DNA of 64,000 bases from Thelephora terrestris (Eukaryota > Basidiomycota > Agaricomycetes > Thelephorales > Thelephoraceae): NCBI GenBank assembly GCA_015956445.1, contig WIUZ02000020.1, forward strand, positions 124,001-188,000, in the 5' to 3' direction. Positions 46,107 to 59,193 of the stretch are shown one piece after another. The notes under the pieces were generated by a model. It was not told the origin of the DNA and did not search any database. It saw nothing but the letters and a program-made list of their open reading frames with translations. The translations under genes were made by a program, and so were the position numbers. Within the stretch, counting starts at the first letter, position 1, and each line of letters opens with the position of its first letter.

Positions 46107-46194
46107 ACAGTTTATCATAGGGGCTACACAACAGGTTTTAAGTATACAACATATGCTTCAAAACAATAATTGACAAGGTCAGCCTAAATACCAC

Positions 46195-46232
46195 CATCAG
46201 CAAAACCGATCGCGCGCTGTCACGGCTGTGGC
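46195..46232. repeat. Left terminal inverted repeat of the nested Plavaka element
   Basis: It begins CATCAGCAAAACCGATCG. The first 18 bases are matched perfectly by the right end. A related arm occurs at 59097-59193. Confidence 0.7.
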
Positions 46233-46461
46233 GCTGCGCGTGATTTCCAGCATCTGGCCACGGTCCCCGAAACTGCTGAGGGGCTGTGATACTGGGGTCA
46301 TATTCTGAGGTGCTGGAGCGCTGGGTTGCTGGATGGAAATTTTATATTTACTGTGGTTCTGTAGAGTCTTTGAAAAATTAAAGTTAAATGCGGCAAGAGT
46401 GACACGAAAACAGATTTATTGTGGGATTTCAAGCAGTTACAGGCTAAATGATGATTGGCGA

Positions 46462-49400
46462 CTACGGACGAGAGCTTCGTAAATACTGAAATATGTCTTT
46501 ATCGAAATACGCGTTTAGAAAGAACTCCTTACTCCACTCCATGCTGTTGCTACTGGTAAGTCGGGCATCCGCCTCTGTGCCGAACCGGGGAACGAGCTGG
46601 ATGGGCATGCGGCAATGAGTGAGGGGAAGGATGTCACCGATGCGTGACCTGTCCGCGCGAAGCGCTCGTTTGACGATGTAGAGGCCGGTGATGGGATCAG
46701 GGATTGCGGAACGAGTAGGAGGGGCGGCGGTGGGTTGAGGGATGATATCAAACCTTTGAGCGTACACCAAGTATGACGGCGCGTTGGAAATCTCCCAGTT
46801 CCAGATCGGGTGGAGGATGAGTCGGATCTGGGCAATGTCATATCCTGGACAGGAAATCAACGGTTGCGGTGGGTAGGTAATACATATGAGCTTACCAGCA
46901 AACCCGACGTCCGGCGAAAGTGCAGGACTTGCTTCGTCGTGAACAAATAGCGCGGTGTCATATCGTCCAAGGGCCCACGAGTCACAGGGAGGTATCGCAT
47001 TGAGGCGTCGAGGAAGCGTGACCGAGTCGTCGTCCACCGAAAATGTCTGCATGCGAAGTGAGTACCACACCATTACGTCGGTGAAAGGAAGCTGTGTATC
47101 GGTGTGAGTCCCTCGTCGTCCACCGATGTGATGAGATGAGGGATTGCCGAGACGCTGGGAGAAGTCGAGGAGGGCTGGGCGAAGATCCGGCAGTCTGTAG
47201 ATTTCGGCGAGAGCGTTGATAGAGATCCGGGGGATGTCCGGCTTTCGGTTGACGTTGAACGCGGCCCAGGGAGTCGAGAAGGTGCGCAGTGGTCGTGGGA
47301 TGCTTGTGAATCCTTCCAACATAACGCGCGTGACCAAGGCGTCAGCGATTGCGAACAGGTTAACTTGCTTGCGAGATGGGCCACAGGCAGTGGCAACGGT
47401 TTCGAGCTCCTCGATCCAACCCACATTTAACTCGTCATCCAATTCCACATTTCCATCATCGGCTTGGTTGCCAGCTGAGCCATATAGAATGGATTCCAAA
47501 TCACCTCCAGCGTCGCAGATGGCCGTCGCGAGGTCGAAGAGGCGTCCCTTCTCTTCGCGATCAAGGTATTGACAGATTTGAGGGCCATACTGGCCGTTAT
47601 TGGTATTCTCGGAGGGGATCTTGATGACATCGATATGGGCGCGCTCTGTTGGGTCAGCAGACCACTGGATGGGGGCTCCGGACCACTTGATGCTCATGAC
47701 AACACTGTGGAAGAATTCAAGCTTGGGAATGAAGAAGTTCTCGATCGGTTTGTTTCCCTTTCCAACCCTTGCTCCGGCGTCGAGAATGGATTGTTTTTTT
47801 TGATGGAAGATGTGGAGTGCGTCGGATATTTCTGCAATGGTGCGACTGTCGATCGATCGTGACTGAGCGAGGTAGCGAAAATCAGCGAGCGCTCTGATGC
47901 AGCGAACAAAATCCTTTGGGGCGGCGTCGGCAATAATCGGAATGAGGTAACGTTGGACGTTGCGGTGGTCGCGGCCAGTGACCTGTTTGAGTGAGGAGAT
48001 GCCGACTTTGAAGTGTCGAAAGCCGACACAAGGTTGCAACAGAGAGAAACGGAAGTCGATTTCTTCGCTTCCAACAGCACGGATGGACCACTTGGCGTCA
48101 TGATCCCAAAACTGCTTGTGCCAATGGTGGAGAGGTTCGGGAGTCAGGAACTGACTCGGTTCGGCGATCGTACCGTCGGGCAGGGACCAATTTCGCCAGA
48201 AGGGAAGATGGACGCCGTTGAGCCTGAAACGTTGCTGGGCCTCCTTGGCATACAACTCGAGGTCCCAGGGATCAACGTCGTTTGAGATGGAACCGATTTG
48301 GGAAAGGGTGACAGATCCTAAGCGAGTCGGGTGACGGAAATGATCCCCAAACGTTTTGTATGATGCGAGGGTTAGGTGAGAAGTTTTCCCCCCGACGCCA
48401 GCAATGACCGCTGCTTCGGGCGTGTCAACGATGTACGCGATGATTGGGGTGAAACAGCAACGAATGCGGCCGAGCGAATCAGACATGAGAGCACCGTTCG
48501 CGGATGCCTGCTTCAATGGTTCGGAGACGAGATCAAGGCAGTGATGAACAAGTCGATTTTCCATAACGCCGTGGAGTGACTTTTTGAGACCGATGAATCT
48601 GGGACAGGGGAGTAGAGCGATCAGGGGGAGGGCGTGATGTGTCGACTTCATTCGAACGCCCATAGAGAGGTTCGCAAGCGTGAGGAGGAGGGGGTGCGCG
48701 ACCCGGTCGCCAGTTGCAATCGAAATGTTGGTTTTGTCAGAAGAGAGGGTTATGCCGAGGAGGGTTCCACCTTCTGGGAGAGCGGACTAGCGAGTATGGT
48801 TAGCTCGTTTTCATGAGAAGAGGGACAAAGAGATTACTTACTTGTGCCGACCACGCCCCATCGCTTGTCATCCAATCGCCGTAGAGGCGGTTCTGTCGGT
48901 CGGAATCCTGATAGACTCGTCGAGAGGTAAATGCCCACTTCCCTTCGAAAATCGGGTTCCGAAGGAGGGTTTGAATGATCTCGAGCGGATCACGATAGAA
49001 GAGAACAACCGGTTTTGCCGTTTTATATCCGTTCAGAGAGACCGGCTGCATCTTCCAGGTGGGCGCCTTCGGGAGGTCTTCCATGCGGCTGCGGAGCGTT
49101 TTCGCAGCTGTGAAGGAAAGCGAAAGTTGCTGGATCTTGACGTTTCATCAGTAAGGGGCCAGCTGCACTATTCGTAGTACGTACAATTGGTAATGCTAAA
49201 AAGTCATCAATGGCTCTCATCGAGAGGCCAGAGCGTGACAACCATGAGGCAAGGCCCCATTCCATCTTGGAGGAGAACGGGTGGTATAGATTTTGCTTCC
49301 TCTTCTCTGCGTGGCGGTCGGAGTTGAAGATGTCGATGAACCCTGCACCGGTCCCGAGAACTTGAGGGATGTTAGGATGGACGTCTTCGTAACGCGCGAC

Positions 49401-49667
49401 GGTTGGATTGCTGATGGCCTCATCGTCATCCATGAGCTCGTCAGAACCAGAAGAATTGTCGTTGCGTGAGGTGTGATTGGGTCCAGTGTCAGAAGAGACA
49501 CGCTGAATGGGGGGGGGGATGGATTCCATGAAGTCAAACCACGACATACACGAAGTCCTCTGGCTATTCATGTGGCGCAGGACGGAATTGTCGTTTTCGA
49601 ACCGCTTGAGGCACGAAGGGCATTGGCCATCGAGGGTGAAAGATGTGCTGGCTGTTGAGCCAGCCAT
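46462..49667 (-). CDS. Plavaka transposase
   Basis: The start is taken at ATG 49665-49667 (MAGSTASTSFTLDGQ). A zinc-finger-like motif, CPSCLKRFENDNSVLRHMNS with a following Cys, is the family's usual N-terminus. Then come TGAGFIDIFNSDRHAEKRKQ, the conserved NLYHPFSSKMEWGLASWLSR, FTAAKTLRSRMEDLPKAPTW and LFYRDPLEIIQTLLRNPIFE. After a second intron the core reads LPEGGTLLGITLSSDKTNIS, then TGDRVAHPLLLTLANLSMGV and TPIIAYIVDTPEAAVIAG. It goes on with FRHFKVGISSLKQVTGRDHR and WSADPTERAHIDVIKIPSEN. The Asp in SSDKTN and in VDTPE are likely catalytic acids of the RNase-H fold (inference). The 3' ORF of over 700 codons is uninterrupted, so the enzyme may be functional. Plavaka is a basidiomycete-rich cut-and-paste family allied to CACTA elements. 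Confidence 0.87.
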
Positions 49668-49808
49668 TGAGGTAAGTTGAGCGATGAGCGTTGAGACCTT
49701 GAGGCTGGGGACTGATGGAGACGTGGAGGGGATGTGGAAGATCACGATCATGAAATGTCTGGTCCCAGCGTGGGACCGATGCAAGACCACAACTCAACTT
49801 CCGCCCCA

Positions 49809-50386
49809 ATGTCACACCCAACATCACTCACCCTATCTCACATTATTGAGCAACTGCGTCTCCTTGATGCTCAAATTCCGGTATGGCTATTTTTTTAGCG
49901 TTCAGACTTTTGCTAACTCGGACTCGGCAGCCTTCAGGAAATTTGATTTTGTCACCCACCTCAACCGAGCAAGTCGCAGCTGCAAAACAGATTCTCACCA
50001 ACGCAAGGCGCCTTCGCGAAAAAGTAGCTCTCGAGTCTACCGAGGCCAGCCAACTACTTTCCCAGGCGCTATTAGATATTGTAGTATATTCAGAGCGGGT
50101 AGAGAATGCGGGCCGCCTGCTCTCGTTGGCGGACTCCTGCATTGGCCAAATCAGGTCCCGGATGCGCGCGCACGGTATTCCCATCCACGCCCTTTCCACG
50201 CCTTCCGACACGCCTTCCAACACGTCTTCCAACATGCCTTCCAACACGTCTTCCAACACCATTGTCCCTTCGAACACTATCACAGCACCCGATACCGGAG
50301 CTGCCAGTGACGGTGCGTGTTTGGTTTGCCGTACGAATGACCAAATTTTTACCAGATCATCAGATGGGCCCGCCGAATCAGTGTGA
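49809..50386 (+). CDS. Transposon companion protein A, 175 residues, helical with a Pro/Ser/Asn/Thr repeat
   Basis: Exon 49809-49880 joins 49931-50386. The protein starts MSHPTSLTLSHIIEQLRLLD, then has a helical part: EQVAAAKQILTNARRLREKV, SQLLSQALLDIVVYSERVEN and AGRLLSLADSCIGQIRSRM. A tandem repeat of TPSNTSSNMPSNTSSN type, encoded by a minisatellite at about 50208-50280, follows. The end has CLVCRT and a stop at 50384-50386. No known domain was recognised. It starts only about 140 bases from the divergent transposase start, so both probably share one promoter. A role in transposition, such as a partner protein or regulator, is inferred from position only. Confidence 0.65.
50208..50280. repeat. 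Short minisatellite (CCTTCCAACACG-type units)
   Basis: Units of 12 bases such as CCTTCCAACACG and TCTTCCAACATG are repeated about six times inside companion gene A, encoding a PSNT/SSNM run. Confidence 0.75.
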
Positions 50387-50513
50387 AGTATTACATTACA
50401 ATATGTAACCGGCCGAATCATGTCTACCTCATGTTCGTTGCACCAATCCGTATATAAGCTTGATTCCCCTCCTTTCAAACCCTAGGTCTCTCCCACCAGG
50501 GTACTCGTTCATT

Positions 50514-52671
50514 ATGGCTCAACCAGACGCCCCTGGCGGCCCCATGCCTCCCCCACCAGCTGGGTTCCTGGAGTACCTCGCACTCTTTTCTTCTCAGAAT
50601 GGCTCTCTCCCTCCCCCACCTGTACCCCAGCCCGTATCTCAGCGTGCTAACGTCGTTCCTGCCTTGCCAGAAACACCTACGCCGGCGCCAACCGCAGGTC
50701 GTGAATTCAACCGGCCTGGCCGTGGGACAGGGGGCGCACTCACACAGAAGGTGAAGGTCTCAAAGCAAATCACGGCGTCTGCTACGAAGCGGAAGTCGTT
50801 TCTCGACGCCGATGTCGTCGGCCAACTCCCAGCAAGTCCTGAGATCGTCGAGGCCCCCAACCCGAAGAAAGTGAAACGGCCCAAGACGGCGGCAGCAAAG
50901 GTCAGTGTTATCTCGATTTGCTTAGATTGCCGCTGACAACGCATCGGCCCAGGCGCAAGCTAAGCGCAACAAGGCGCAGGCCTCCAAGAAATCGGCCAAG
51001 TCAGCAACAACCCCTGTTCCTGCCGGACCGATCCCAAGCCCGGTACGACCCTTCCTTCCCTTCTTCAACCCTGCTAACGCCCTTTCTCAATAGATCTCGA
51101 CCCCTGCTCCCCCAACGCCTATACGCCCCACACCGCGCTTAACCAAACCGACTGTCAAGGTCCCAAAACCGGAACCGGTAGTCGATTCACTGATGGATGA
51201 CGTCTTCACCTCAGGGCTCCAGGATATCGAAAGCAATCAAAGCAGCGAAAGCGACGATGAGACCGAGGTTCCTGCCCCAACGAACAGCAGCCATCCATCG
51301 ACGTCCATTCAGAACCAAAGTACCACGGTTCGTGCATTGTGCTTTATGGCACATCAAAATTTATTGATTCATTTCTAGCTCCCGGTGATCGACCTCATTC
51401 ACGCGGCTCTCGCTCAGTACAGAGGAGTCTCTCTTCCACTGCGTCCGGTCAAGCCCACTCCTGTTCCGCCGTCTCAGGACGACAATGCGAAGCAATCGAA
51501 GGGCATGGGATGTTACCCAAGCGGATGGCGGAAAGTCCTGATCAAATCCAAGGACCTCTGCCGCTCTTCAATCTTACTCTACAACCCCTTCCCTGGTCCC
51601 AATGACGTCCGCGTCATGGCCACTGAGAGTTTCCATGAAATATACACAACCCTATGCAGTGAGGGCCTCGTTCTTGAGCCCGGTACGTCCACTTAGCAGA
51701 GAGACATTTTTAATTGCTCACGTGTGCTACCGAACAGAATTCTCGTGGAACAACCATATGCTGTTAATCGTGAGTGACCTTGATCATCAAGGTGTCAAGT
51801 CGGCTAACGTGTTGAATGGAACTGCCACAGTTACTGAACGAGATCTCAACCTGCCGAAGTGAATTGAAGAAGCTCGCGAAGATTCTTGTAGGGGTGGATA
51901 CTGAGCTCTTCCCGTTGACTTCAGATAAAGACAAGGCTATGCTCCACCTGCCCGTATCGGACATCCGTTCAATGGCCTCGAGAACAGAAAAGAAGAACGC
52001 CAAGGCTCCACCACAACCTACCCATGATCCCAGGCACGTTCGCGCCATTGTCGCCAATCGCCTTTTCCGCTTTGCATACCTCAACAATCCTCCGACACTA
52101 GAGGTAGGCGTCTTCTCCCTTTCATCATCAGTTGACTGAAGGATTTACAGGGCAGCCGCCTTGCTCACCCAATCCTTGAGAAGCTCTGTAAGAGCTTCTA
52201 TGAGGAAGACAAATGGCAACGCGCCCTCAAGTGCCAGGCATTTGGGGACAAGGAATGGAAATCTTCGGTCACTCCCAGTATGGTTTCGTTGGCCGCAACT
52301 GCAGTAAGTGGCATCATTTGATAAGAAGGGGAGCAGATTCTAACTCTCGCCCACAGTATCTCTGTGCCCTCGAAGAATGGCAAACTGGCCACTTTGTCCA
52401 GAAGGCATTTGAATGCGCCAAGTACATTGATGGCTATGGCAACACTCGAGGATGGATCGACCGCTGCATTGAAGATGAAGATGACGACCTCGTGGTCGAT
52501 CGCCTCAGTTCCTGGGCAACTGACAGGTATTTCCGGCTCCCCTTCTTCCGAGCTGAAGAACATTGGCTGATTGCATTCACCAGCTCGTTTGTTCAAAGTC
52601 TCCCAGAGTCCGAGGACGACGAGGAGGACGAGGAGGACGAGGATGATGAGGACGATCCCGCGGACCAGTGA
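50514..52671 (+). CDS. Transposon companion protein B, about 550 residues (possible DUF6532-like)
   Basis: The ATG at 50514-50516 begins MAQPDAPGGPMPPPPAGFLE, a Pro-rich region. A Lys/Ala-rich basic part (NPKKVKRPKTAAAK, AQAKRNKAQASKKSAKSATT) resembles a nuclear signal. A Ser/Glu-rich linker (SNQSSESDDETEVPAPTNSS) leads to the folded core: LPVIDLIHAALAQYRGVSLP, GWRKVLIKSKDLCRSSILLY, EFSWNNHMLLI and SELKKLAKILVGVDTELFPL. The core goes on with HVRAIVANRLFRFAYLNNPP and LCALEEWQTGHFVQKAFECA. The tail is strongly acidic (DDEEDEEDEDDEDDPADQ) before TGA 52669-52671. Seven or so introns are needed. The core recalls DUF6532-type proteins found across Agaricomycetes, but this is uncertain. It is probably nuclear; its role in the element is unknown. 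Confidence 0.6.
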
Positions 52672-53042
52672 AGATGACACCCGCCAATTTGCCGATAACG
52701 ACTCTTGCCTTTTCGCCTCTCGTTTTGCTCCATTCCGCATTTGATTTTAATGACATTACTGAAACATAGCACACTCGTTTATGGTACTCTATATACACCT
52801 CTGAATACAGATAATGTTTTTTCATTAATGTGCGAGCCTGATATGTTCCGCCTCATCCCACCCCCCCTGGAAAAAGCACCTGACACCCGACACAGCACCT
52901 GACACCCGACACGTCACCCAGAGTCACAGACGTCACATTGGCCCAGAATCCCAGCGCGGACCTATCTAGCCGAGTCGTTGTGGTGCTGTGACCTTCCTGT
53001 GGAAGCGGGGGGTAAGTCTGTGACGATCGGTCGTCACAGAAT

Positions 53043-53080
53043 CCACAGAGCCTCACAGCGACCGATCGGTTTTGCTGATG
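53043..53080. repeat. Right terminal inverted repeat of the nested Plavaka element
   Basis: It ends CGATCGGTTTTGCTGATG, the exact reverse complement of the left end over 18 bases. Confidence 0.7.
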
Positions 53081-53166
53081 ACCATTCCATGCTGTCGCTG
53101 GAAATGTCAGCCTCAATGCCATTGCCACCACCATCATTTTCAGTGTCGTCGTCAACCGACACCTCA

Positions 53167-59096: not shown

Positions 59097-59193
59097 TCAT
59101 CAACAAAACCGTCCGGCTGTTGTGGTGACGGGCCCGTTCGTTTGAGGGTGCCAGTGTGCGATCGCTCAGCGACTCACGGTTTTGCTGGTGATG
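59097..59193. mobile_element. Short MITE-like inverted repeat related to the Plavaka ends
   Basis: A stretch of about 97 bases begins TCATCAACAAAACCGTCCGG and ends CACGGTTTTGCTGGTGATG. The arms pair at 12 of 14 core positions and share CAACAAAACCG/CAGCAAAACCG with the ends of the nested element at 46195-53080 (CATCAGCAAAACCGATCG). It lies in the promoter region of the first F-box gene. It may be a miniature derivative of that transposon family. Confidence 0.55.

Follow-up and report, generated by a model that had tools for sequence, protein, structure and literature searches.

The plant CACTA element En/Spm encodes a transposase, TnpD, together with a second, fast-diverging protein, TnpA, and carries arrays of subterminal repeats (PMC2613891, PMC8195511). 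Passages of these papers describe TnpA as recognising the subterminal repeats and as required for transposition (PMC2613891, PMC8195511), and also as a regulator of its own element (PMC2613891). In Harbinger/Nuwa elements the transposase is likewise joined by an element-encoded partner, there a Myb/SANT protein, according to a passage of PMC12730594. Other passages of the same paper report that Plavaka shares the C(2)C and H(3-4)H motifs with CACTA, Transib and RAG1, and that some Plavaka families carry TET/JBP. Elsewhere, the PF18759 transposase domain is stated as the criterion for Plavaka (part of PMC8290104). The main text of PMC12730594 contains “DUF6532” and “accessory” 0 times, and its passages on Plavaka describe no partner resembling the two proteins presented below. 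DUF6532 is named beside Plavaka among the domains of some Ganoderma species in one sentence of PMC8955403, a passage that states neither a function nor a link to mobile elements. In titles and the beginnings of abstracts, mostly outside subscription journals, no DUF6532 or A-like protein tied to Plavaka was found.

The element described here has a Plavaka transposase and two further genes, companions A and B. As in En/Spm, an element-encoded second protein is found together with subterminal repeats, weak at the right end; this likeness to TnpA is one of anatomy and subterminal repeats. Two differences are apparent from the parts of PMC2613891 and PMC8195511 concerned. TnpA and TnpD are made by alternative splicing of one transcript, whereas here the transposase is encoded on one strand and A and B on the other, so that they are not splice forms of one gene with it; and the repeat motif is 12 bp (En-1) or longer there, in contrast to the 8-bp spacing here. 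Unlike the Harbinger/Nuwa partner, neither A nor B matches Myb/SANT.

The element, its ends and its transposase

The window (the whole stretch of DNA analysed, 64 kb, contig C13) contains at 46195-53080 a Plavaka-type DNA transposon of 6886 bp, with the following features.

46193-46194, no strand: target-site duplication AC, left copy, from the C44 empty site
46195-46220, plus: left terminal inverted repeat, beginning CATCAGCAAAACCGATCG
46217-46361, plus: left subterminal CTG array with 8-bp spacing (7 pairs, reached by 0 of 1000 shuffles)
46462-48786, minus: transposase exon 3, bulk of the Plavaka domain and DUF6830 (gene model, Pfam)
48842-49135, minus: transposase exon 2 (gene model)
49185-49667, minus: transposase exon 1, encoding a weak, sub-threshold C2H2-like finger (E 0.064)
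49809-49880, plus: companion A exon 1; the intron after it is common to C23 and C18 and lies near that of C2
49931-50312, plus: companion A exon 2; a helical part containing SRMRAHGIPIH precedes a low-complexity tail
50364-50386, plus: companion A exon 3, DGPAESV and stop (by eye, C23 and C2 have a similar tail)
50514-50900, plus: companion B exon 1, PPxGFxEYL and GRGTGGAL...KVSKxITA segments
50953-51042, plus: companion B exon 2, basic
51094-51327, plus: companion B exon 3, Pro-rich, with an acidic patch
51379-51682, plus: companion B exon 4, where DUF6532 begins
51738-51769, plus: companion B exon 5, DUF6532
51831-52103, plus: companion B exon 6, DUF6532
52151-52303, plus: companion B exon 7, DUF6532
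52357-52671, plus: companion B exon 8, where DUF6532 ends, with the acidic tail (tail missing in the C23 relative)
52893-53058, minus: CTGTG repeats of the right subterminal region, whose 8-bp spacing is weak (attained in 15 of 1000 shuffles)
53055-53080, minus: right terminal inverted repeat, pairing with 46195-46220
53081-53082, no strand: target-site duplication AC, right copy, from the C44 empty site

The terminal inverted repeats are 26 nt long and 92% identical, and their outermost 18 bases, counted from 46195 and 53080, match exactly, as the earlier note had claimed. Within the 64-kb window the exact 14-base end sequence is found in two places, the element's own ends, and the degenerate CATC[AT]G[CG]AAAA is also confined to these two ends.

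Three near-identical copies are present in the genome, that of the window and those on contigs C59 and C9, which differ from it by 3 bases and 1 base, respectively. All three have identical 6886-bp borders and different flanks. Contig C44 (1-3457) carries the flanks of the window element without the element itself, with an identity of 98.4% on the left and 99.8% on the right. The left flank aligns up to base 1359 of C44 and the right flank starts at 1358; given this overlap at 1358-1359, AC occurs once in the empty site and twice in the filled one. C44 could represent an allelic or a duplicated version of the window site; as it carries the flanks without the element, the insertion is polymorphic within the assembly. 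Flanking duplications are also seen at the C59 copy (CTC, 3 bp) and at the C23 relative (TA, 2 bp), and comparison of the flanks showed no match at the C9 copy, the C2 relative or the C18 relative. Near-identical copies at different sites, together with an empty site and its 2-bp duplication, show that the element has moved recently in this genome. The three same-border copies, the empty site on C44 and a coding pattern kept in four diverged relatives make the feature more than a product of chance.

The transposase has 1033 aa and is encoded on the minus strand. Its frame is open, as had been described, but the gene is not strictly uninterrupted, since it contains two introns, both at positions common to the C23 and C2 relatives in spliced alignments. 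The protein matches the Pfam Plavaka domain (PF18759) over profile positions 1-324 of 325 (E 9e-79, 265.4 bits, cut-off 26.3), so that the domain used to define Plavaka is present, and it also matches DUF6830 (E 2e-33). It resembles PlavakaB, as presented in part of PMC12730594, in this domain, in its CATCA...TGATG termini and in its target duplications of 2 bp (AC at the window, TA at C23) or 3 bp (CTC at C59). Two candidate catalytic D residues lie in SDKT and DTPE. What sets the window transposase apart is that it reads VDTPEAAVIAGVGGKTSHLTLASY where, according to that paper, the clade as a whole (CMCT: CACTA, Transib, Plavaka, RAG1) has a C(2)C motif following its second catalytic D. The element is therefore filed as Plavaka by its domain and ends, and C(2)C is not claimed. 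Its earlier description as an apparently intact Plavaka transposon is supported.

The companion genes

Two spliced genes had been placed on the opposite strand close to the transposase start, and this arrangement is borne out. Companion A (158 aa, plus strand) is divergent from the transposase, with 142 bp between the start codons, and companion B (595 aa, eight exons, 50514-52671) starts 847 bp from the transposase start and is open throughout.

For A, no convincing match was found in Pfam, and profiles of solved structures gave only weak ones (best E 0.59). Pfam matches of single A members (G-gamma, E 0.025, among them) were set aside as probable chance likenesses between helical proteins. 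A structure model of exon 2, of low confidence (pLDDT 55), has three helices and an unstructured tail. The third exon, at one stage modelled at 50356-50386, was replaced by 50364-50386 after comparison of the tails, where DGPxE is conserved. A distant A copy on C12 has the same plan of exon 1, intron and exon 2 (exon 1 by eye) and the motif SRFRARGIPIH; companion A is older than the family of the window element. The A of the C5 relative has an in-frame stop after the first intron.

Companion B had been described as belonging to no recognised family. That no longer holds, since it matches Pfam DUF6532 (PF20149) with an E of 4e-18 and 66.4 bits, against a gathering cut-off of 24. Its parts follow in the order N-terminal PPxGFxEYL, GRGTGGAL...KxKVSKxITA segment, Lys-rich stretch and DUF6532. 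Profiles of solved structures yielded no convincing relative of B (best E 0.04). A last intron at 52527-52583 was rejected because the C23 relative reads through it; in that relative, CTG stands in place of the start ATG of B. In the N-terminal part of the B protein on C8, RRGRGSNGRDVQLDKLGDLL resembles by eye the GRGTGG segment of the window B, a hint of a short motif that distant B proteins may share. Pfam gave no match to a Myb/SANT, dioxygenase or chromatin domain in A or B, and TET/JBP cargo was discarded for the element as none of its three proteins has such a Pfam match. No relatives were found in viral contigs, where 69 and 106 pattern matches were obtained and none was confirmed.

Selection was estimated by the Nei-Gojobori method on tblastn codon pairs, leaving out codons adjacent to gaps, against four diverged elements of the same genome (C23, C18, C2 and C5). 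The dN/dS values, rough because synonymous change is near saturation (dS 0.93-1.85), were 0.10-0.13 for the transposase, 0.13-0.17 for A (79-110 codons, computed with an earlier A model that differs only in the tail) and 0.27-0.36 for B. The matches contain 0-4 stops per gene, at least part of which are introns read through. Two shorter relatives gave 0.34 for B and 0.14 for the transposase (C12), and 0.43 for B and 0.50 for A, the latter on 40 codons (C23b). In spliced alignments guided by the window protein, seven B intron positions are common to all four modelled elements (window, C23, C18, C2) within two codons, with one extra predicted B intron each in C18 and C2. The first A intron is common to the same four within one codon, and the position of the second is matched only in C23 among the C23, C18 and C2 models. 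A and B are thus under purifying selection and keep their intron positions. With dN/dS far below 1 in each of the three genes, and with the recurrence described below, the view of A and B as conserved companions stands.

Recurrence beside Plavaka transposases

Profile searches of the contigs of this one genome returned at least 132 matches to PF18759, merged to at least 70 loci, and at least 20 matches to PF20149 in at least 19 loci. At fifteen of the 19 detected DUF6532 loci a Plavaka transposase lies no more than 12 kb away, always divergent and with the gene order unchanged; at most 5.3% of the genome is within 15 kb of such a transposase. The reverse association is weaker, with a detected DUF6532 neighbour at 15 of the 70 merged transposase loci. 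CATC[AT]G[CG]AAAA follows in the correct orientation 535-816 bp past DUF6532 in 14 of the 20 matches (13 of the 19 merged loci). The window copies of B are missing from the PF20149 matches, as single exons probably score too low. Four detected DUF6532 loci have no Plavaka domain nearby. One (C12:3407896) is a damaged relative of the window element and another (C58:738120) has a transposon-type end downstream; for the remaining two (C1:1345647 and C4:926272), neither a Plavaka transposase up to 150 kb away nor a transposon end in the region examined was detected, and relics or host-adopted copies are candidate readings for them.

Companion A was searched with two queries. The C18-type query gave seven strong matches, all in the family of the window element, and three weak ones (E 0.17-0.73), each with a Plavaka transposase next to it; the C12-type query gave 19. 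When the 20 loci from both queries combined were compared with all 132 transposase matches, 18 were head-to-head with a transposase within 15 kb (16 at a spacing of 0.65-1.17 kb, one at 2.3 kb and one at 13.8 kb). Two stand alone, C56:2465467 (E 0.0016) and C1:2280745 (E 0.09). Many of the loci are near-copies, and the locus counts, 18 of 20 for A and 15 of 19 for DUF6532, are therefore not counts of independent events. A and B thus turn up repeatedly next to Plavaka transposases, divergent from them and in a constant order, and the earlier note's alternative, in which their homologues would be mainly stand-alone genes, does not describe this genome. By selection, introns and association, A and B are genes of the element.

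Is A a constant part of such elements? No A was found in the interval between transposase and B on C60 and C45, which rules out its presence in every Plavaka element, nor was one found beside C18:155916 by genome searches with C18- and C12-type queries. The transposases of C18:155916 and C60, where B is present and A was not found, keep CPKC. All seven distinct transposase sequences read beside an A (window, C23, C2, C15, C10, C23:1306010 and C12:991048) are without C(2)C. A possible exception to this link is C8, whose transposase is without C(2)C and yet has no A detected in the part of the interval read.

Among the subterminal repeats, CTG at 8-bp spacing occurs within 170 bp of the left end in five of five elements, with 7, 5, 8, 6 and 7 pairs, as against no more than four in 1000 shuffles of each element; in the 64-kb window the only array of at least four CTG pairs is the element's left end. 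The right ends of four elements have 2, 4, 1 and 3 pairs; of 1000 shuffles each, 15, 0, 197 and 3 attain these numbers, so that the spacing is weak in the window element (15) and in C2 (197). The right end of the window element also holds five CTGTG repeats read inward, a number reached by 0 of 500 shuffles. The distantly related element on C60, the only B-only one whose ends were examined, spans 211733-217848 with B inside, a perfect 25-bp terminal inverted repeat and CA flanking on both sides, and has no CTG array at its ends. An 8-bp CTG array was also observed in the damaged C12 relative, with 6 and 7 pairs in two places near the ends.

Possible roles of the companion proteins

Preserved by selection and repeatedly found next to transposases of one kind, A and B probably belong to the jumping machinery and are unlikely to be passengers. 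We put at about 0.6 the probability of a Plavaka-type cut-and-paste transposon whose transposase works with two partners that have no recognised enzyme domain, in the following manner. The transposase would cut at the CATCA...TGATG ends. B, which runs from basic to acidic, is probably nuclear and contains DUF6532, would serve as a general second transposition protein that, at the ends, binds either DNA or the transposase. A, small, helical and so far found in the branch without C(2)C, would work with the 8-bp-spaced CTG array, and the two together could bring the ends into a pair or control the divergent promoter, a part played by TnpA in plant CACTA elements. On this reading A is a small helical partner specific to its branch, and A and B, with the subterminal array, likely act in the manner of TnpA; A or B may bind the array.

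It is possible, and in our view unlikely, that A and B instead serve anti-silencing or interaction with the host, with chromatin or methylation as their target, like the TET/JBP genes of other fungal DNA transposons, and are dispensable for cutting and joining. The TET/JBP carried by some Plavaka families (part of PMC12730594) and the basic and acidic tracts of B, typical of nuclear proteins, would fit such a role. However, B accompanies both of the transposase types encountered, whereas TET cargo is sporadic, neither protein matches a dioxygenase or chromatin domain, and A tracks one transposase type and the terminal array, with C60 representing the B-only ends. A narrower division of labour, in which B is the only transposition cofactor and A is a repressor or activator of the divergent promoter that its gene shares with the transposase, draws on the head-to-head starts of A and the transposase, 142 bp apart, and on the regulation of En/Spm by its own TnpA (part of PMC2613891). 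No DNA-binding motif was recognised in A, whose low-confidence model has three helices and an unstructured tail, and this self-regulator is quite improbable. The two DUF6532 loci without a nearby transposase or end would suit genes captured from the host, or passengers that do nothing for the element, but selection on the genes in four diverged elements, introns shared between elements, the same gene order in distant branches and a transposon-type end after 14 of the 20 DUF6532 matches contradict that reading within the genome examined and leave it hardly any probability.

The preferred reading of A and B as partners in transposition has a bolder and rather doubtful extension, a three-protein machine. 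C(2)C would have been lost in one Plavaka branch, A and the 8-bp CTG array would have taken over end recognition or pairing, B would be the common second subunit, and DUF6532 would be at heart a transposon family. For DUF6532, with at least 19 loci in this genome, the element provides a concrete home and a role that can be tested, and A adds a conserved protein family for which no Pfam entry was found. Recognition of such genes as belonging to an element would help to keep them out of host-gene counts. Being recently mobile and insertion-polymorphic, the element also offers a direct test bed for the need of a transposase for its partners.

The relative at C5:27920-48759 measures about 20.8 kb between its ends, as against 6.9 kb here, the extra length presumably being inserted DNA. 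In the window, one-mismatch versions of the 14-base end lie at 59098 and 59177; they bound on both sides a stretch of 93 bp (59098-59190), flanked by AT on both, which is perhaps a tiny non-autonomous derivative of the same transposon type.
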